Virus record (IMG/VR): IMGVR_UViG_3300035670_001033
Span: 1 to 28,090 of that record
Origin: a virus
Length of the DNA stretch: 28,090 bases
Direction: 5' to 3' (one strand)
Made by a program: the position numbers and the translations under genes. Position 1 is the stretch's first letter. Each line of letters opens with the position of its first letter. The notes beneath the pieces are model-generated. The model did no database searches, had not been told where the DNA came from, and saw nothing but the letters and a program-made list of their open reading frames with translations. This document shows, piece by piece, positions 2,498 to 24,180 of the stretch.

Positions 2498-3228
2498 CAC
2501 TTGTCAAAGATTCCTTTTTTAACCATACGGTCAAGGATTCTTGCACAAGCAATATCTAAAGCTTTTTTAGTAGCAATAGAAATAGAAGATTGATTAAACT
2601 TAACAGGATCTAAACTAGCATCTGATAACCCAGATGTTTCTTTAGTAGTTTTAGCTTCACCTAAACCAGAACCAGAAATAACGGTTCCTGTTTCAGCATT
2701 TGTGAATCTCACTTGAAGACCAATACGAGTTACTAATAGTTGTTTAGTATCACCCTTAATATAAACAGATTCATCTTCTGAAATAGAGTAATCATAACAT
2801 TCTATGGTAACAAAGTATTCAGCTAGGTTAATTTTACCCCTTCCATCTAATTTATTTTCTGATATACCTGCTTGAGAAGCTTGAAACTGTTTTACCATAC
2901 GGTTTTTAATTTCAGTTTTATCTTCTGTAAACTTAAATCTGTTTAGATTTTCTAGGTATTCCATAGATATGTTAGCTACGCCTAGTCCTACACGCTTTTC
3001 TTTTAGCTCAGGAAACATCTCATACATTTCTTCAGATATTCCAGCTTTTAGAATCTGAATAGGGATTTGTTTACCTTCATAGTCAAGAAACTGACTAATG
3101 TCAATAGACTTCTCAAAACTAGCTTTATAGTTTTCAGTAGTAGTTTTAGCTATCTGACAAAAACCAGCATGCCCCAATAAGAGCATGCTGGATAAAAACA
3201 CAAACCAAACAAAATATTTCTTTTTCAT
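2497..3228 (-). CDS. CsgG-like curli secretion/assembly protein
   Basis: 243 aa with a signal peptide (MKKKYFVWFVFLSSMLLLG) ending near a Cys-Gln that could be a signal peptidase site or a poor lipobox. The mature part follows the CsgG plan. It has a strand like KRVGLGVANI and a helix in which NRFKF replaces the family's 'gR.f.vvdR' segment. After this come AEYFVTIECYDYS, the paired strands LLVTRIGLQVRFTNAETGTV, and a C-terminal helix ending in ACARILDRMV. Bacterial CsgG is an outer-membrane nonameric pore that exports curli subunits; CsgG-like genes are known in T4-like cyanophages and pelagiphages. ATGA overlaps link it to the gene upstream, and TGATG links it to the exported protein downstream, so the two are probably co-translated. 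No curlin repeats were seen in this window. The assignment rests on pattern, not on a search. Confidence 0.6.
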   Translation of the reverse strand: MKKKYFVWFVFLSSMLLLGHAGFCQIAKTTTENYKASFEKSIDISQFLDYEGKQIPIQILKAGISEEMYEMFPELKEKRVGLGVANISMEYLENLNRFKFTEDKTEIKNRMVKQFQASQAGISENKLDGRGKINLAEYFVTIECYDYSISEDESVYIKGDTKQLLVTRIGLQVRFTNAETGTVISGSGLGEAKTTKETSGLSDASLDPVKFNQSSISIATKKALDIACARILDRMVKKGIFDK

Positions 3229-3470: not shown

Positions 3471-4103
3471 TTAAACAATATCTTTTATCTTTCCACACTT
3501 AAGACATTCTTCATCACCGTCTCCATCAGCGTCACCCCAAACGTGCTCACACTGACGGTGTGCAAAGTACTCATCAATTTTACCATCACCATCAAAGTCA
3601 AGACCGTCCATAACACCGTCTCCGTCTTCATCAATTTCTGTACCTTTTTTAACTGGTGCAGCTACCGGTTCTACCACTGCTTTAACTTCTTCTTTAACCT
3701 CTTCTTTAGAAGCTTGTGATTGTGCGTTAGCTCTATCAGCAGCAGCTAAGAATGCCGGATCTACTAAAGGTGTAGTGTCTTTAGGAGACTCTTTCATATC
3801 ATTAGTATGTGATAATGAAACTCCGTCTTCCTCATCCATCTTCTGTACTAACATCTTGTCTTTGTCAGTATCAGAGAACCAGTAATCAATAATTTTACCA
3901 TAAGAGCCAATAAACGCTCCTAGTAAAAGTAACAATAACTCTTTCCATTCACCCTGGATAGCAGTGCCGTATGTAATAGCAGTAAAGATACCTGCTATAA
4001 TAAGCATAAATGAACCTAATACTAACGCTGTAATAAACCAGCGTCTCATCATCATTGATCCTAGTAGTTCTTTAAAACCACCTGATTGTGTGTTGTTTTC
4101 CAT
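3471..4103 (-). CDS. Membrane protein with acidic DxDGDG loops and Cys/His tail (holin-like N-terminus)
   Basis: 210 aa. Two transmembrane helices, at about residues 22-46 and 53-76, are followed by IGSYGKIIDYWFSD. This resembles the end of the last helix in 3TM-type phage holins, where a GSxG...YWF(G)S pattern is typical. A flexible Ser/Glu/Val/Pro segment follows. The C-terminus then carries repeated acidic loops (DEDGDGVMDG, DFDGDGKIDE, DADGDGDEE) like the calcium-binding loops of EF-hand, dockerin or thrombospondin type 3 repeats. These sit between a CEH and a CLKCGK motif that could bind zinc. The segment pattern is visible in the sequence; metal binding is inferred from the motifs. It lies among other small membrane proteins downstream of the endolysin gene, so a role in membrane permeabilisation or envelope sensing is possible. 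Confidence 0.65.
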   Translation of the reverse strand: MENNTQSGGFKELLGSMMMRRWFITALVLGSFMLIIAGIFTAITYGTAIQGEWKELLLLLLGAFIGSYGKIIDYWFSDTDKDKMLVQKMDEEDGVSLSHTNDMKESPKDTTPLVDPAFLAAADRANAQSQASKEEVKEEVKAVVEPVAAPVKKGTEIDEDGDGVMDGLDFDGDGKIDEYFAHRQCEHVWGDADGDGDEECLKCGKIKDIV

Positions 4104-14994: not shown

Positions 14995-15999
14995 ATGTTT
15001 AAGATAAAGAATATGGTGCATGACATCAAGGATGTCCCAGCATCATGGATATTTGAACATTTCTGCAAGCTTAGAGAGAAGCTTAATGGGCATGATATAA
15101 AGATTAAAAGTCTTTTTAATTCTAAAGAACGCACACCTAGTATGTGCATCTATTACGATCCTACAAAAGACACATATAAGTATAAAGACTTTTCTTCCGG
15201 CAACGGTGGGTCAGCCATAGATCTAGTTAAAGAAATAACAGGATTGTCTTATCACAAAGCATGTACTCTTGTAGTAGAGAATTATAATGATTTTGTACTC
15301 CACAATAATGGTGGGTACGATGTACAGAAATTTAAACAGGCGTCTAAGTATAAAGTTAGTCAGTTTGTTTTCAGATCTTGGACTACTCAGGACCAATACT
15401 TTTGGACACAGTTTAATATTGGCTCACGTCTTTTAGATGAGTATAACGTAAGACCTCTTAGCAGTTATACTATGCATAAAGATACTGATGATGGACCCAT
15501 TGATCTAACCATTACCGGTAACTATTTATATGGTTACTTTAAAAATGATGGTACTCTGTACAAAATCTATCAGCCTAAAACACTAGATAAAAAGTTTATT
15601 AAAGTTCAAGACTATATCCAAGGTGTTGAGCAAGTAAAGAGTGCACCTTATCTAGTTATAACGTCTTCACTAAAAGACGTAATGTCTTTAAAGAGTCTTA
15701 AGATTTCTACCTTGGATATCATTGCACCAGACTCTGAGAATACAATTATCCGTAAAGAACTTATGGATCAATACATCAAGAAGTATAAGAAAGTGATTAT
15801 ACTATTTGACTATGATGAGCCCGGCATCAAAGCTATGGAAAGATATAAAGAACTATATCCAGAAGTAGAATATGCTGCTCTACCAATGAGTAAAGATCCA
15901 TCTGATTCTATTAAGGACTACGGTCCTAAAGAAGTGTATGTACGTTTAGTACCTATACTTAACAAAAGAATATTAAATGATCAAGAAGAAAACAACTAG
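14995..15999 (+). CDS. DnaG-like primase without zinc ligands
   Basis: 334 aa. The N-terminus keeps the shape of the DnaG zinc-binding domain: SLFNSKERTPSMCIYYDP corresponds to 'CPFHxEKTPSFxV', and YKYKDFSSGNGGSAIDLV to 'YxCFGCGxGGDxxxFV'. All four metal ligands are replaced. The TOPRIM domain has LFDYDEPGIKAM (about residues 261-272, DxDxxG) and SKDPSD, but the first motif reads ITSSLKDVMSL, with Ser where DnaG has the catalytic Glu. The family makes RNA primers for lagging-strand synthesis next to the DnaB helicase. It starts 12 nt after a terminator, so expression may depend on read-through. It overlaps the HNH gene by 23 nt. Confidence 0.8.
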   Translation: MFKIKNMVHDIKDVPASWIFEHFCKLREKLNGHDIKIKSLFNSKERTPSMCIYYDPTKDTYKYKDFSSGNGGSAIDLVKEITGLSYHKACTLVVENYNDFVLHNNGGYDVQKFKQASKYKVSQFVFRSWTTQDQYFWTQFNIGSRLLDEYNVRPLSSYTMHKDTDDGPIDLTITGNYLYGYFKNDGTLYKIYQPKTLDKKFIKVQDYIQGVEQVKSAPYLVITSSLKDVMSLKSLKISTLDIIAPDSENTIIRKELMDQYIKKYKKVIILFDYDEPGIKAMERYKELYPEVEYAALPMSKDPSDSIKDYGPKEVYVRLVPILNKRILNDQEENN

Positions 16000-16366
16000 A
16001 CGTACTGCATCTCCTAAGACTAGGAATGCAGGTACAATGACTGAATCCGCATTTTGGAGTTTCATTAGAAGTACGTTACGTCAAAAATCAAGATGGTGGA
16101 AACCAATTACACAGTGTAAAATGGAATCTCGTAGACCATATAAAGGTCCGTTGAAGAGACAGAAGTTTGAATACCAGTGTAACTCTTGTAAAAAATGGTT
16201 TCCTGAAAAGAAAATTAATGTAGACCATATAGTTGGTGCAGGTAGTTTAAACTGTGCAGCAGATCTTCCTGGATTTGTAGAGAGATTATTCTGTGAACAA
16301 GATAATCTACAGGTACTCTGTGAGGTGTGCCATAATGAAAAAACACAACTTGAAAAAAAAAAGTAA
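15977..16366 (+). CDS. HNH endonuclease
   Basis: 129 aa. A basic N-terminus (IKKKTTRRTASPK) precedes the zinc pair CNSCKKWF, the catalytic VDHIVGAG, then DNLQVLCEVCHNEKT with the final Asn/His and the second CxxC. This is the treble-clef HNH fold with two CxxC zinc pairs. Lying inside the replication operon and overlapping the primase by 23 nt, it is more likely a resident recombination or replication nuclease, perhaps a junction or packaging nuclease, than a homing invader; the substrate cannot be told from sequence. Confidence 0.8.
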   Translation: MIKKKTTRRTASPKTRNAGTMTESAFWSFIRSTLRQKSRWWKPITQCKMESRRPYKGPLKRQKFEYQCNSCKKWFPEKKINVDHIVGAGSLNCAADLPGFVERLFCEQDNLQVLCEVCHNEKTQLEKKK

Positions 16367-18839: not shown

Positions 18840-20780
18840 ATGGAAGAAAAGAAACCTACCCACTGGGTAATGGACTATGAGACGTTAGTTAATTGTTTTA
18901 TAGGTGTGTTCCAACATTACAAAGATGAGAATATCAGAAAGACCTTTGTAATATATAATGATCGTAATGATCTACCACAATTCATAGACTTTCTAAATGA
19001 GTGTAAAGATAAAAACCAATGGCATATTAGTTATAATGGTTTAGCTTTTGATGCTCAGATTAGTCAGCATATTCTAGATAAGCAACGTCAGTTACTAAAT
19101 CTTAGTACAGAAGATGTTATCAAAGACATCTATGCTTTTGCACAGAAGACCATATCTCTTAAAGATCAAAACAGTTTTCTTGAGTACTCTCCCGCTAAGA
19201 TTAAGATTAGACAGATAGATCTATTTAAGATGAATCACTGGGACAACCGTGCTAAGATGAGTAGTCTTAAGTGGATACAGTATTCTATGGACTGGAAGAA
19301 TGTAGAAGAGATGCCTCACCATCATGCTGCTCCTGTAGAAACAGATGAGCAACTTAAGATGATTACTGAGTATTGTGTCAATGACGTACTTAGCACAAAG
19401 AAAGTGTTAGAGCATTCCAAAGAACAGATTGTCTTAAGACAAACTCTTACTAAGGAGTATGGTATTGATCTCTATTCTGCATCAGAGCCAAGAATATCTA
19501 AAGAACTATTCTTACACTTCTTGTCACAGAAGTTAGGTTGGGATAAGGGATATATTAAAACACTTAGAACTCATCATAGAGAAATCTATTTGGGTCAGTG
19601 CATTTTACCTTATGTCAGCTTTAAGACTGAAGCATTCCAAAGAATGTATGACTATCTACGTACTCAGGTAATTATATCCACTAAGAACGGATTTAAGTAC
19701 ACTGTAGATCATAAAGGTATGAAAACTGATTACGGGCTCGGTGGTATCCACGGGGCTAGAGATGCAGGTGTTTATGAAGCTAAGCCGGGTTATACTATTA
19801 TGACTTCAGACGTAACTTCATTCTATCCTAATCTAGCTATTAGAAATGGATTTCACCCTAGTCATCTACCTAAAGAAGAATTCTGTGAACTGTATGAATG
19901 GTTCTTTGAAGAGCGTAAAAAGATTCCTAAGTCTGACCCAAAGAATTATGTGTACAAGATCATTCTGAACTCTACATATGGTTTAACAGGTGATGAGAAT
20001 AGTTTCCTGTATGATCCTCGTATGACTATGCAGATTACTATCAACGGACAGTTGTTACTATCTATGCTATATGAGATGATATCTTTGGCTATCCCAGAGT
20101 CTATACCTCTTATGCAAAACACAGATGGTCTTGAGACTTTGATTCCTACACAATATGTAGAAACCTATCATCAAGTATGCCAAGAGTGGTGCAAACTAAC
20201 TATGCTAGAACTAGAACATGATGAGTATTCTAAGATGATCATCAGAGATGTAAACAATTACATTGCGGTATCTAAGTCTGGTAAAGTAAAATGCAAAGGT
20301 GCGTTTGAGTGGGAGGATCTGGACAAAAAGAAAGTAGCTGTATTTCATAAGAACAAAAGCTTCTTAATTATCCCTAAAGCCATCTATGCTTACTTTACAA
20401 AAGGTGTTAAACCAGAAGATTTCCTAGCAGCCAATCAAAGTATATTTGATTACTGTGCCGGTATAAAGTCTAAAGGCGGATGGTACTTTGAGCTTAGAGA
20501 TCTTAAGGAAGGTCAGCTAGTAACAACAAGACTACAAAAAATCGTTAGGTATTATGTTTCTAATAGAGGAGGTAAGCTAGTCAAGTGTCATGCAGATGGC
20601 AGACTAATCCAGGTAGAATCTGGACAGTGGCTACAAACTACTCTAAACGAAATAAACGAAACAAGACCTTTTGAGTCTTATGATATTAACACAAGCTACT
20701 ATCTAGAACAGATCTATAAGGAGATACATCAGATAGAAAAAGAAAAGAGTTTATCATTTACACAATTATCATTATTTTAA
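18840..20780 (+). CDS. Family B DNA polymerase with 3'-5' exonuclease domain
   Basis: 646 aa, compact for PolB. Exonuclease motifs are VMDYET (Exo I), SYNGLAFD (Exo II) and YCVNDVLSTKK (Exo III). Polymerase motif A is SDVTSFYPN (about residue 323), motif B is KIILNSTYG (about 370-378) and motif C is NTDGLE (about 427), where most PolBs have DTDS. Only about 50 residues separate motifs A and B, so the fingers are unusually short. The protein ends in QLSLF, the consensus bacterial beta-clamp-binding pentapeptide, suggesting use of the host DnaN as processivity factor; no phage clamp gene is seen here. A strong terminator precedes the gene. Family assignment is firm, and the clamp link is inferred from the motif. 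Confidence 0.93.
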   Translation: MEEKKPTHWVMDYETLVNCFIGVFQHYKDENIRKTFVIYNDRNDLPQFIDFLNECKDKNQWHISYNGLAFDAQISQHILDKQRQLLNLSTEDVIKDIYAFAQKTISLKDQNSFLEYSPAKIKIRQIDLFKMNHWDNRAKMSSLKWIQYSMDWKNVEEMPHHHAAPVETDEQLKMITEYCVNDVLSTKKVLEHSKEQIVLRQTLTKEYGIDLYSASEPRISKELFLHFLSQKLGWDKGYIKTLRTHHREIYLGQCILPYVSFKTEAFQRMYDYLRTQVIISTKNGFKYTVDHKGMKTDYGLGGIHGARDAGVYEAKPGYTIMTSDVTSFYPNLAIRNGFHPSHLPKEEFCELYEWFFEERKKIPKSDPKNYVYKIILNSTYGLTGDENSFLYDPRMTMQITINGQLLLSMLYEMISLAIPESIPLMQNTDGLETLIPTQYVETYHQVCQEWCKLTMLELEHDEYSKMIIRDVNNYIAVSKSGKVKCKGAFEWEDLDKKKVAVFHKNKSFLIIPKAIYAYFTKGVKPEDFLAANQSIFDYCAGIKSKGGWYFELRDLKEGQLVTTRLQKIVRYYVSNRGGKLVKCHADGRLIQVESGQWLQTTLNEINETRPFESYDINTSYYLEQIYKEIHQIEKEKSLSFTQLSLF

Positions 20781-20791
20781 TTAACACAATT

Positions 20792-21604
20792 ATGCCAGTT
20801 AAAACAATATTTGCGTCTGAAGATTATTTAAGAGGATGTAGACTACCTAACCACGGTAAGTCTTACACAGTTATCTCACACGGAACAGTTATAGATGAAG
20901 CTAGAGCTAGATTATCATCAGCCGGTTTCACAATTACAAATGAATTATATAAAACTACAATCTCTGGAGATGTAGCACAAGGAATTTACCACCTAAGATC
21001 AGGAAGTGATCCTGACATGGGACTTATGTTTGTATGGTCAAACAGTTACAATAAAACCATGGCTTTTAAATGTGCAATTGGTGCACAAGTATTCATCTGT
21101 ATGAATGGTGTAGTATCAGGAAACCTAGGTTCTTATAGAAGAAGACACAGTGGCTCAGCTCTATCTGATCTAACTACTTCTATGCAAGAACAGATAGCTA
21201 ATGCTTCTACATACTATGATGATCTTATCAAAGACAAAGAGATGCTTAAAGATATTACTCTTACTACAAGACAGAAAGGTAGTATTTTAGGTAGACTATT
21301 TGCTGAAGATGAGATCTTGACACTTACTCAAGTAGGTATAGTAAAACGTGAGATTGACAAACCAAGTTTTTCTTATAGCAGTAATCCAGACAGTGCTTGG
21401 GATATGTACAATCATATCACACTAGCACTTAAAGATTCTCACCCAATGAGTTATTTGTCTGACCATCAAAGAGTACACAGCTTCTTTGTTAACGAGTTTG
21501 GCAATATTGTAAATAGTCAATCTGTACCAGTAACATTAGAACCTGAAGAAGTTACTGAACAGTATGAAGAAGTAATGTCTGATTTTGGAGTAAACTTTAT
21601 TTAA
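20792..21604 (+). CDS. DUF932-like phage/plasmid protein
   Basis: 270 aa. The central part (MFVWSNSYNKTMAFKCAIGA, then VFICMNGVVSGN and a basic RRRHSG) resembles the DUF932 core, where 'SNSyDGs.a...g' and 'vC.NGlv' recur. DUF932 proteins are common in phages and plasmids near replication genes; no activity is established. The C-terminal half is helical and ends in an acidic tail. It starts 11 nt after the polymerase with leader TTAACACAATTATG, so it shares the polymerase transcript. Confidence 0.5.
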   Translation: MPVKTIFASEDYLRGCRLPNHGKSYTVISHGTVIDEARARLSSAGFTITNELYKTTISGDVAQGIYHLRSGSDPDMGLMFVWSNSYNKTMAFKCAIGAQVFICMNGVVSGNLGSYRRRHSGSALSDLTTSMQEQIANASTYYDDLIKDKEMLKDITLTTRQKGSILGRLFAEDEILTLTQVGIVKREIDKPSFSYSSNPDSAWDMYNHITLALKDSHPMSYLSDHQRVHSFFVNEFGNIVNSQSVPVTLEPEEVTEQYEEVMSDFGVNFI

Positions 21605-21605
21605 T

Positions 21606-21947
21606 ATGAAATGGTATAAATTAAACGAAGACCATAGTGTAGAAGTTCTACCTGATGGTGAGTATCCTAAGATAGAAGATTTAAATGGGCCTAGTAAACA
21701 TGTAGGTAATACATTCATTGGTGACCAAAGAATCTCTACAGTGTTCTTACACTTTGATCATGGCTTAAACTTTGGTACAACAGATAAACCTTCTGATCCT
21801 GTACTGTTTGAGTCTATGATATTTGGTGGGCCGCATGATGAGTATCAACGTAGATACTGTACATACAATGAGGCTTTAGAAGGACACAATTACTTAATTA
21901 AAGCTCTGGAAGAAGAAAGACACCCAGACTTTTATTTTAACGATTAA
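21606..21947 (+). CDS. 113-aa hypothetical protein
   Basis: It starts MKWYKLNEDHSVEVLPDGEY, which lies 1 nt after the DUF932-like stop. Short strands with His/Asp/Gly turns (TVFLHFDHGLNFG, LFESMIFGGPHDEYQRRYCT) precede a final helix (YNEALEGHNYLIKALEEER). No domain was recognised, but the close coupling and smooth composition support a real phage gene. It is the last gene before the kinase relic and homing endonuclease insert. Confidence 0.6.
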   Translation: MKWYKLNEDHSVEVLPDGEYPKIEDLNGPSKHVGNTFIGDQRISTVFLHFDHGLNFGTTDKPSDPVLFESMIFGGPHDEYQRRYCTYNEALEGHNYLIKALEEERHPDFYFND

Positions 21948-21957
21948 ATAAATCTAT

Positions 21958-22008
21958 ATGATTATAGGAATTAATGGATATGCCGGCAGTGGATTTTGTA
22001 AATTCTAA
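21958..22008 (+). pseudogene. Relic of the 5' end of a P-loop (dNMP kinase-like) gene
   Basis: A 17-codon frame begins ATG 21958 and reads MIIGINGYAGSG before turning into FCKF-stop. Its first 12 residues parallel the start of the intact kinase at 22616 (AIIGLSGYSHSGKDT), matching at 8 of 12 positions and stopping exactly where the Walker A lysine should follow. At the DNA level the two copies differ at many third positions, so this is not a recent duplication. The GIY-YIG endonuclease gene begins 20 nt later. It is best read as the original kinase start cut off by arrival of the homing element. Confidence 0.65.
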
Positions 22009-22024
22009 AATATTTAGTATATTG
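21995..22024 (+). promoter_or_regulatory. Possible weak promoter of the homing endonuclease
   Basis: TTTG (21995-21998), then 19 bp, then TATATTG (22018-22024), which misses the -7 consensus TAnnTTTG by one or two bases. The transcript would start at or near ATG 22029, so it may be almost leaderless. Confidence 0.25.
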
Positions 22025-22028
22025 TAGT

Positions 22029-22610
22029 ATGAACTATACAAACATATACATACTAATAGATCCTACAAATAATGAAATTAAATATGTAGGTAAAGCTAAT
22101 AATATTAAAGAGCGTTTTAAAAATCATAAAAACCGATGTAGAGATACAAATACTTATAAAAGGCATTGGATAAATAAACTTAGATTAAAGGGACTATATC
22201 CAGAACTTGAAGTTATAGATATAGTCCCAGTATCTGAGTGGCATTATTGGGAAAAGTTTTGGATAAGTTACTACAAATCAATTGGTTGTAACTTAACTAA
22301 CACAACATCTGGTGGTGATGGGTTAAGTTGCGGCAATAAAACATCTTTTAAACGTGGTCAAATACCATGGAATAAAGGTAAAAGTCCTAGTAAAGAAACT
22401 AAACTTAAAATAAGTAATACACTTAAAGGTAATATTCCTTACAATAGAAAACCAGTCATACAGTATGATCTTTTAGGTAATAAAATACAAGAATATTTAA
22501 GTTGTCATCATGCAGCTAAAGTTCTTAATACGTCAGCTATAAGAATATCTGACGTATGTAATGGAAATCGTAAAACACATAAAAAGTATATTTTTAAATT
22601 CAAAAACTAA
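22029..22610 (+). CDS. GIY-YIG homing endonuclease with NUMOD domains
   Basis: 193 aa. The GIY-YIG nuclease domain spans about residues 1-95: NIYILID (GIY strand), IKYVGKANNIKERFKNH (YIG strand and the catalytic Arg helix), WEKFWISYYK (catalytic Glu) and CNLTNTTSGGDG. Residues about 108-140 form NUMOD3-type repeats (SKETKLKISNTLKGN). The end (KPVIQYDLLGNKIQEYLSC, AAKVLNTSAIRISDVCNG) is a NUMOD1/IENR1-type helix-turn-helix that reads DNA. Such enzymes cut a conserved site in a rival genome and spread by repair. No group I intron core or intein was seen. It sits between a kinase-gene relic and an intact kinase gene, so the kinase P-loop region is the likely target. Lys/Asn-rich, AT-heavy codons differ from its neighbours. 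Confidence 0.92.
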   Translation: MNYTNIYILIDPTNNEIKYVGKANNIKERFKNHKNRCRDTNTYKRHWINKLRLKGLYPELEVIDIVPVSEWHYWEKFWISYYKSIGCNLTNTTSGGDGLSCGNKTSFKRGQIPWNKGKSPSKETKLKISNTLKGNIPYNRKPVIQYDLLGNKIQEYLSCHHAAKVLNTSAIRISDVCNGNRKTHKKYIFKFKN

Positions 22611-22615
22611 ACAAT

Positions 22616-23329
22616 ATGGCAATAATTGGATTATCAGGGTATAGTCATTCTGGAAAAGACACTGTCGGCACTATCATACAATATTTAGTTGCTAGTCCTA
22701 CTAAAGATACTGTCACTCTACAAGATGTGATGGACTTTCCAACTATGCATGAATGGTGGTTAGATGAACAATCAGGTTGGGAAATAAAGAAATGGGCAGG
22801 TAAACTTAAAGTTGTAGCATCTTTACTTACAGGTATACCTAAGCATAAGTTTGAAGACCAAGAATTTAAGAAAACTAATTTAGGTTCTGAGTGGGATGTT
22901 TTAGAAAGCACACCACGTTATACAGAAAAGGGTTCTTATTACACACAAAAGAGTATACCCATGACAGTAAGAGATTTCTTACAGAAATTAGGCACAGATG
23001 GTCTTAGAGATAACCTACATGAAAATGTATGGGTGAATGCTCTTATGGCTGACTATGAAGGTATGTATGATATAGACACAGATAGAACTACATACCCTAA
23101 TTGGATTATTACTGATACACGTTTTCCTAATGAAGCACAAGCTATTCAGCAAGCTAATGGTATTATAATCCGTGTAGAACGTCCTGGTGTAAAACCAATC
23201 AATAATCATCCATCTGAAGTTAGCTTAGACAACTGGAACTTTGACCATACTATTATAAATGATAGTTCTGTTGAAGCTTTAGCTAAAAAGGTTAAACAAA
23301 TACTTCAGTTTCATAAAATTATTTCATGA
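22616..23329 (+). CDS. Deoxynucleoside monophosphate kinase
   Basis: 237 aa. The P-loop is GYSHSGKDT (residues 8-16), with Asp in place of the usual Ser/Thr after Lys, as in T4 gp1-type dNMP kinases. Other family blocks are VRDFLQKLGTDGLRDNLHEN (base and phosphate binding, about 122-141), WIITDTRFPNEA (about 161-172), IIRVERPG, then HPSEVSL and the closing FDHTIINDSSVEAL. The enzyme phosphorylates dNMPs to dNDPs for phage DNA synthesis and would work beside the ribonucleotide reductase at 26933. The gene is complete even though a homing endonuclease and a remnant kinase start lie immediately upstream. Its stop overlaps the next start (ATGA). Confidence 0.85.
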   Translation: MAIIGLSGYSHSGKDTVGTIIQYLVASPTKDTVTLQDVMDFPTMHEWWLDEQSGWEIKKWAGKLKVVASLLTGIPKHKFEDQEFKKTNLGSEWDVLESTPRYTEKGSYYTQKSIPMTVRDFLQKLGTDGLRDNLHENVWVNALMADYEGMYDIDTDRTTYPNWIITDTRFPNEAQAIQQANGIIIRVERPGVKPINNHPSEVSLDNWNFDHTIINDSSVEALAKKVKQILQFHKIIS

Positions 23330-24180
23330 AAATAATCCATCAGCGTACTAAAACCCTAATAACCCGTGATAATGGAAGGAGTTCGGATGCAGTTAGTCCG
23401 AACTTCATCTACGGGTGCTTAGGCGGTTGTATGAGCTCATACTGTTATGTAGGCAGATACAATCATGATAAAGTATATATAAATGAAAACACTGGTGATA
23501 TTCTAAAATCCATGGACGGATGGTTAAGTAAACAGTCTTGGCCTAAGACACCTAACCAGTGTGATGAAAAGTATTACACAATAGATATAGGATGCAGCAC
23601 AGACGTAGCTCTAATGACTAAGCATTATGATTGGCAGGAAGTATTCTACTGGTTTAATAACCATCATATGGCTAAGTCTACTTTTGCTACTAAGTATCCT
23701 ACCATGTTTCAACCTCAGTGGAAATATATCTTAAATAAAGATAGACATCGTATCCGAGTAAGCTTAATGCCTCAGATATACTCTGATGTACTAGAACCAA
23801 ATACAGACACTATAGAAGAACGTATCTGGAGCATACCTAGGTTACAGGAGCATATGGAAGTACATATTAACTTTAGTCCTATTATATATACGGACGGTTG
23901 GATAGAAGAGTACCGTAAGCTATTTCAACAACTTAAAGCTGCTAATATAGATGTTAAGTGTGAATGTATATTCCTTACACATAATATACATCAGCATGAA
24001 CGTAATGAGCAACCAGTGCGTGATCTATTATGGCGTCCGGATATACAAGAAGCCAAAGACTCTCAGTATGCTGCAGATAATATTAGGTATCAGTGGCAAC
24101 TTAAAAAACAAATGGTTGGTGAGTTTACAGCTCTATATGCAGAGTTTTTTGATCCAACTAACATTAGATATATATTTTAA
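23326..24180 (+). CDS. Radical SAM protein, spore photoproduct lyase-like
   Basis: 284 aa. Near the N-terminus SPNFIYGCLGGCMSSYCYVG has three cysteines (C31, C35, C40) placed as the radical SAM iron-sulphur cluster site, but spaced CX3CX4C instead of CX3CX2C. YTIDIGCSTDVALM and STFATKYPTMF, then RIRVSLMPQ and EVHINFSPIIY, follow the strand order of SplB-type (spore photoproduct lyase) TIM barrels. SplB repairs a thymine dimer photoproduct; a phage protein could repair UV damage or modify nucleic acid. Overlap with dNMP kinase (4 nt) and closeness to nucleotide enzymes fit DNA metabolism. The family is likely, but the substrate is unknown. Confidence 0.65.
   Translation: MKIIHQRTKTLITRDNGRSSDAVSPNFIYGCLGGCMSSYCYVGRYNHDKVYINENTGDILKSMDGWLSKQSWPKTPNQCDEKYYTIDIGCSTDVALMTKHYDWQEVFYWFNNHHMAKSTFATKYPTMFQPQWKYILNKDRHRIRVSLMPQIYSDVLEPNTDTIEERIWSIPRLQEHMEVHINFSPIIYTDGWIEEYRKLFQQLKAANIDVKCECIFLTHNIHQHERNEQPVRDLLWRPDIQEAKDSQYAADNIRYQWQLKKQMVGEFTALYAEFFDPTNIRYIF

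Follow-up and report, generated by a model that had tools for sequence, protein, structure and literature searches.

The window analysed here, a stretch of 28,090 nucleotides (positions 1-28,090 of IMG/VR record IMGVR_UViG_3300035670_001033), carries a short gene remnant, a homing endonuclease gene and a complete kinase gene in a row, all on the plus strand. Coordinates are those of the window unless another locus is named, and in comparisons its locus is denoted WIN or L081. The upstream neighbour gene (21606-21947, 113 aa) forms the left flank, and no Pfam or PHROG match was found for it. It is followed by a short frame (21958-22008) that reads MIIGINGYAGSGFCKF and stops; codons 1-12 of this frame (21958-21993, MIIGINGYAGSG) are those of an original kinase gene and finish at the P-loop Gly codon GGA. 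The endonuclease ORF (22029-22610) begins 20 nt after the stop of that frame, has its own start and stop codons and encodes a GIY-YIG homing endonuclease of 193 aa, whose domain matches in Pfam are GIY-YIG (PF01541, 3.7e-07), NUMOD1 (6.4e-07) and NUMOD3 (3.6e-05). Residues Y7, Y19, R29, H33, E75 and N91, which we take to be the catalytic residues of the GIY-YIG domain, are invariant in six aligned sequences, and the dN/dS of the gene against its homologue in L077 is approximately 0.14. The intact deoxynucleotide monophosphate (dNMP) kinase gene (22616-23329; Pfam DNMK, PF21448, 2.2e-19) starts MAIIGLSGYSHSGKDT 5 nt after the endonuclease. The ORF is complete, reading from Met on through the P-loop, and L002-L004 align to residues 3 or 1 to 236. 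Its first 13 codons (22616-22654, MAIIGLSGYSHSG) are, by the nucleotide comparison of starts given below, a replacement 5' end, and the kinase body runs from the P-loop Lys onward (22655-23329).

The first-pass annotation of this DNA had described a kinase relic up to the P-loop glycine (21993), a 20-nt gap, the endonuclease (22029) and an intact kinase start (22616), and each of these elements was confirmed. Of the 17-codon frame, codons 1-12 alone are kinase sequence; the tail FCKF-stop is part of the inserted unit. Relic codons 2-12 are identical at 32 of 33 nt to the endonuclease-free kinase genes of L007 and L016, and the same relic peptide is found in contigs L077 and L078 ahead of a 90% identical endonuclease. 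When upstream frames were scored against downstream gene starts, the window scored 39, a value reached by only 2 of 560 mismatched pairs, both of them kinase against kinase. On these comparisons the window relic is a genuine kinase remnant and not a chance match. The downstream N-terminus is differently coded, as had been claimed, with 17 of 33 nt shared between the replacement start and its own relic.

We then compared the locus to kinase relatives from IMG/VR (the best 80 of 307, and 65 loci fetched separately). L002 is the closest endonuclease-free relative among the best 80 of 307. Its left flank is 92.7% identical to window positions 18841-21993 over 3,154 nt, a block that includes the upstream neighbour gene and ends exactly at the last codon of the relic (21993), and, in a 672-nt alignment that starts at nt 36 of the gene, its kinase is 91.2% identical in nucleotides to that of the window. 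The kinase start of L002 itself, MIIAISGYSGCGKDL, differs from both the window relic and the replacement. Direct read-through in endonuclease-free relatives had been set as a test beforehand, and it was observed: GGATATGCCGGCAGTGGA continues into AAAGACACTGTCGG in L007, L009 and L016, and with one base different in L010. In L007 the left block ends at 4033, corresponding to 21993, and the right block begins at 4030, corresponding to 22651; the net insert is therefore 661 nt (21994-22654), with TGGA (4 nt) at both edges. This mobile unit consists of a 35-nt leader (21994-22028), the first 15 nt of which end the relic frame, the GIY-YIG endonuclease and the 13 replacement codons. The left alignment with the window ends at 21993 for L002, L007 and L016 and at 21992 for L010.

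In order to count such empty sites for other units, left blocks of at least 60 nt ending no more than 6 nt from the junction were accepted, with all subjects having any left match as the denominator. Such blocks were found in 4 of 90 subjects for the window (L002, L010, L016 and L007), 2 of 68 for L141 (L151, 90.7% over 1,174 nt, and L147, 88.7%), 1 of 27 for L165 (L149, 81.7% over 224 nt), 5 of 16 for L365 (72-76% over 86-91 nt) and 2 of 57 for L051. The left blocks of L151 and L147 stop 2 nt past the GGN codon of L141, and their right blocks begin in the P-loop. No junction-ending block was found for L077 (of 1 subject), L084 (90), L177 (84), L195 (2), L086 (30), L290 (19) or L287 (40). Empty sites thus exist for the window, L141, L165 and L365, and none was found for these seven other units.

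The origin of the starts was examined in the last 33 nt up to and including the P-loop glycine codon in two groups of units, family A (WIN, L077 and L084) and family B (L141, L177 and L195). The replacement starts of family B share 32, 30 and 29 of 33 nt pairwise, whereas the relics of the same three loci share 18, 20 and 21, and each start shares 19-25 of 33 nt with its own relic. In family A, WIN and L084 agree at 29 of 33 nt in the start and at 21 in the relic. The relics of WIN and L077 are more alike (29/33) than their starts (27/33), so this pair alone is uninformative on the question. Among 120 starts treated as endonuclease-free, the best agreement with the window start is 28 of 33 nt; one of the 120 (L136) in fact sits behind an HNH gene. 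Taken together, the replacement start is element-specific and goes with the endonuclease, and the relic is specific to the host gene, as judged from these alignments.

The proteins show a similar separation. Endonucleases 89-97% identical stand ahead of kinase bodies only 47-67% identical in 5 of the 10 pairs compared, the GIY-YIG endonucleases alone being 90-97% identical in four of them. The amino acid identities of endonuclease and kinase body, respectively, are 90.2 and 66.5% for WIN-L077, 94.8 and 64.1% for L141-L177, 96.9 and 47.2% for L141-L195, 95.2 and 50.0% for L177-L195, and 89.3 and 66.7% for the HNH pair L165-L275. Values for WIN-L084 (76.7 and 56.8%) and L077-L084 (75.1 and 59.7%) are lower for the endonuclease. 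There is no clear contrast in 3 of the 10 pairs: L177-L196 (100 and 97.5%), which are close relatives, WIN-L086 (47.1 and 52.0%) and L086-L141 (58.6 and 56.6%). The dN/dS of the endonuclease is 0.09-0.17 in the five contrasting pairs. We read these near-identical endonucleases ahead of divergent kinases as a unit that moves between kinase genes, and the ratios as purifying selection on the endonuclease. The proposal of the first-pass annotation that the mobile unit is the endonuclease together with a replacement 5' end is thereby borne out by the empty sites, by starts that track the endonuclease and by relics that track the host gene.

Relics at other kinase loci were searched for by motif. 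Within 2,500 nt upstream, 4 of 80 kinase loci had one (L001, L077 and L078 with an endonuclease, L051 without), in addition to the window; within 2,000 nt, 6 of 64 did (L130, L141, L154, L155, L165 and L177), a set in which some loci hold little upstream DNA and 11 lack any motif match. Searching by endonuclease added L084, L085/L086, L195, L196, L198, L201 and L384; the contig of L198 stops inside the endonuclease, and some loci are one contig fetched twice (e.g., L130 and L085). Among 150 kinase loci, an endonuclease homologue lies in the 1,500 nt upstream only at unit-carrying loci, at L136 (which is the contig of L275) and at the split kinase of L184. No relic was found by eye or in the scan at L127, L128 and L129, relatives that carry an endonuclease. 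The relics stop at the P-loop GGN codon or inside the next codon, and they do so before different endonuclease families. An unrelated NUMOD4-HNH endonuclease occupies the same slot in L165, with both relic and replacement start. At L275 (2900-3540) the same kinase start has an HNH endonuclease that shares 89% identity with its L165 counterpart, and no relic is detectable upstream. In L141, L177 and L085/L086 the final codons of the endonuclease and the new start codon overlap.

The leaders of family B, L154, L201 and L165 begin AAGTTTG. The codon after the P-loop GGN is AAA in 107 and AAG in 13 of 120 starts, so the AAG of these leaders likely belongs to the unit. Since the leader of L165 begins like that of family B, its HNH endonuclease may have taken over an existing slot. 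The Bacteroidota promoter consensus is given in the cited part of PMC7366714 as TTTG and TAnnTTTG. A strict form of this motif is present in 8 of 12 kinase-unit leaders (L086, L141, L177, L154, L165, L196, L198 and L201), several of which are close relatives, compared to a background of 52 matches in 1,031,458 nt and 21 in 6,000 shuffled leaders. The strict motif was not found in the leaders of the window, L077, L084 and L195, and we claim no promoter in the leader of the window.

Some loci depart from the common arrangement. At L051 (3904-4003) the relic MIIGINGYAGS is followed by a 64-nt spacer and then by a complete, different kinase start, with no intact endonuclease. A relic and an intact start without an endonuclease is the pattern that the first-pass annotation had named as counting against its model, and L051 is the one locus where it was seen; the resemblance of its spacer to a collapsed GIY-YIG gene is weak (equalled by 8 of 500 shuffles) and only suggestive of a collapsed cassette. 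The replacement starts of L154 and L155 (approximately 2945-3020) and L201 (approximately 3600-3660) derive from a kinase whose N-terminus is extended (MKKENKKHP...LIGINGRIGSG in L154/L155). All three have an interrupted P-loop frame at this start, so the kinase is not visibly restored in these units, and since the same interruption precedes different kinase bodies it travels with the unit. Finally, the kinases of L184 (1882-3429) and L188 (1071-3252), two further loci flagged in the relic search, are each divided in the middle of the gene by another GIY-YIG endonuclease; the C-terminal part begins anew as a separate ORF, with no replacement start. L185 (3001-4305) has an interrupted kinase whose match lies in two pieces approximately 400 nt apart.

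The identity between relic and start ranges from 17 to 25 of 33 nt across the units, around the median of 21 of 33 for random endonuclease-free pairs (85 distinct starts). Selected recoding as the cause of the difference is therefore unsupported; a divergence that is ordinary for two kinase starts is explained equally well by capture of the start of another kinase. It is nevertheless plausible that a start coded in this way would shield the donor site from cutting.

Three other explanations of the locus have to be weighed. The first-pass annotation had offered as its alternative a former tandem pair of kinases, the first copy of which was destroyed by insertion of the endonuclease. Such a pair would account for two kinase starts in a row at the window locus, and for L051 with its two starts, its short spacer and its lack of an intact endonuclease. 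However, a survey of 150 kinase loci found no locus with two complete kinases, and the 4 that have a second, separated match are the split genes of L184 and L188, the interrupted one of L185 and a 35-residue fragment in L132. The common stopping point of the relics before different endonuclease families, and starts that track the endonuclease rather than the phage, also argue against it, and we consider this disfavoured origin very unlikely. Alternatively, the endonuclease alone would be mobile, inserting as an ordinary free-standing gene with an in-place duplication of the 5' end that later drifted. In favour of this, the divergence of kinase relics and starts is within the range observed among ordinary kinase starts, and L205, where relic and new start are identical over their shared stretch, is what a recent event of this kind would look like. 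Local duplicates are expected to resemble their own relics, however, and the starts of family B agree with each other (29-32 of 33 nt) more than with those relics (19-25 of 33), which counts against it and leaves it very improbable.

Intron-borne endonucleases of the GIY-YIG family exist, and the relic codons continue in the endonuclease-free L007 into a normal P-loop kinase, so the relic and the kinase might be thought to be joined at the RNA level around a group I intron or its remnant. Against this reading, the window region 21500-23500 gave only three snoRNA/miRNA models at E<=10, far below gathering scores, and no Rfam model reached its gathering score at any of 14 loci; on these searches a group I intron was rejected as a candidate, as was any other structured RNA. 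Just 35 nt precede and 5 nt follow the endonuclease ORF, and the downstream start is a complete kinase start. We regard an intron as extremely unlikely.

We consider it very probable that the locus holds a mobile cassette in which a free-standing homing endonuclease is transferred along with a substitute 5' end for the gene it targets. The endonuclease would cut an endonuclease-free kinase gene in or close to the P-loop codons (GGN followed by AAR GAY). The break would then be repaired by copying from the donor, cassette included, through homology to the old 5' end (now the relic) on the left and to the kinase body on the right. This would sever the old start, leaving a stub of 12-13 codons, and the cassette-borne start, 3' of the endonuclease, would rebuild a complete kinase reading frame, presumably of an active kinase. 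As the cassette carries a substitute start, the kinase stays whole while the stub of the old start remains. Cutting at the junction is not a given, since the free-standing endonucleases of T4-like phages are described in the cited part of PMC2988022 as cutting hundreds or thousands of bp from their own genes.

We also compared frames upstream of endonucleases to the start of the downstream gene in 94 distinct loci and then in 53 from the last search. The latter include repeats (L369 = L084, L375 = L196, L377 = L195, L378 = L141, L382 = L085 and L405 = L205), and duplicates, loci with little upstream DNA and loci with no gene directly downstream (7 in the 53-locus search) were left out of the stub-start comparison. 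In the 94-locus comparison L177, L077, L274, L205, L141, L195, L086 and L057 scored at least 43, a value reached by 0 of 560 mismatched pairs, the maximum of which was 42 and the top two of which were kinase against kinase. Lower scores were obtained for L084 (36, reached by 5 of 560 mismatched pairs), L101 (34, 5), L108 (32, 10) and L126 (31, 17). In the 53-locus comparison L379 scored 69 and L375 scored 50 (each reached by 0 of 412 mismatched pairs), L405 scored 46 (3) and L384 scored 45 (5), with kinase-against-kinase comparisons again at the top of the mismatched pairs listed. L391 (12/412), L383 (63/412) and L387 (78/412) are not significant by score and were considered because their stub stops next to the P-loop GKD codons. 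In most loci of both comparisons no stub-start match was seen.

Outside the kinases, one such target is an Mre11/gp47-like gene. Among 80 loci, 5 have a stub and a replacement start, 51 the start only and 24 no motif match. The five stub loci amount to three distinct sequences, namely L290 = L291 (with L293 one base different), L365 and L287. L290 and L365 have an identical leader, and their stub stops at the Asp codon of the D-T-H motif; uninterrupted relatives, e.g., L298 and L309, read through the junction. The endonucleases of this pair are 81.6% and the gp47 proteins 81.1% identical; being no more alike than the gp47 proteins, the endonucleases do not point to recent transfer there. L101 was counted as a gp47 case, though scoring the same as L268 (see below), because of its position and its uninterrupted relatives. 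In L126, a 642-kb phage record, the endonuclease lies ahead of a guanylate-kinase-like gene. At L205 (2780-3760) relic and new start, identical over the shared stretch AGAATAATATATAGAATAAGTGA, flank a GIY-YIG gene at a gene that by eye is glycosyltransferase-like; this suggests a young insertion of duplication type, with local duplication at that locus. From these alignments, the design is shared by units with an unrelated HNH endonuclease and by units before an Mre11/gp47-like gene and, less firmly, by units ahead of further genes.

We think it somewhat probable that these loci belong to a general class of start-swapping phage cassettes, each made of a leader (often promoter-like), an endonuclease from one of at least two unrelated families (GIY-YIG and HNH) and a replacement start, that target codons of conserved catalytic motifs near the starts of core genes. 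The targets would range from dNMP kinases and other P-loop kinases to Mre11/gp47-like nucleases and others; phages of hundreds of kb would be included (L379, 362 kb; L126, 642 kb, with a weak score), and the 5' ends of core genes would steadily be swapped for foreign ones.

The closest known parallel is found in the mORFs of fungal mitochondria, which, in the cited parts of PMC3630166 and PMC4019555, bring a foreign C-terminal end to their target gene while the native end persists as a relic; the gene hybrids described are atp6 in Allomyces macrogynus and atp6, atp9, cox2 and nad3 in Glomus sp. Both systems combine a free-standing endonuclease, a foreign, DNA-divergent replacement gene end and a native relic that resembles endonuclease-free relatives, and the window unit has both the travelling replacement end and such a relic. 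In the mORF hybrids, however, the replacement is 3' (C-terminal), the relic lies downstream and the setting is mitochondrial, whereas the window unit is neither C-terminal nor mitochondrial: it replaces a 5' end downstream of the endonuclease, resides in a phage and leaves upstream a relic that breaks off at a catalytic-motif codon. The T4-like seg (GIY-YIG) and mob (HNH) genes share with it the endonuclease families, the phage setting, the absence of an intron and presumably the co-conversion of flanks, and the window likewise has a nuclease domain and no surrounding intron or intein; their cut sites are distant, and a replacement gene start is absent from their description in the cited part of PMC2988022. 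That part also gives genes-in-pieces cases (mobE in Aeh1 nrdA, mobA in T4 gene 60, and seg43 with gene 43), which resemble the window unit in that the endonuclease lies within or next to a region critical to the function of a metabolic or replication gene. There the target forms two parts that reassemble; in the window it is not split into two needed parts, the downstream kinase ORF being complete and the upstream piece a stub. An intron core flanking the ORF, as in a mobile group I intron, is absent at the window. The ShiLan-type element, an out-of-frame HNH endonuclease within a phage methylase gene, is similarly an in-gene insertion in a phage with no detectable intron or intein parts and a host gene that is still readable, as the cited part of PMC11855218 has it; its host frame is read through the insert, whereas that of the window restarts after the endonuclease. 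A replacement start is also absent from the cited parts of PMC10448857, PMC12724721 and PMC11855218, and a phage or 5' version of a replacement-end endonuclease was not found in titles and abstract openings of the open-access literature.

For an insertion at the best conserved codons of a necessary gene to be harmless, an intron, an intein or a split protein is normally required. The window unit would be a further answer to this problem, a selfish gene that brings its own patch in the form of the missing gene start, an answer otherwise described, in the sources cited above, only for gene ends in fungal mitochondria. Start-swapping would offer a testable account of free-standing endonucleases that occupy catalytic-motif sites. 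It predicts that foreign 5' ends are spreading through phage kinase and recombination genes, and the stubs left behind would be markers of past events.

Two minor observations concern other endonuclease genes. In L268, L208, L426 and L443 an endonuclease lies upstream of a FAD-dependent-looking gene, and a short WSDG-coding stub ahead of the endonuclease matches a motif further into that gene; we judged these loci weak, as mismatched pairs score as high in 5 of 560 cases for L268, 17 of 560 for L208 and 23 of 412 for L426 and L443. The window itself has a second endonuclease-like gene, of HNH type, at 15977-16366 (PHROG 1985, 1.1e-24), directly 3' of the primase.
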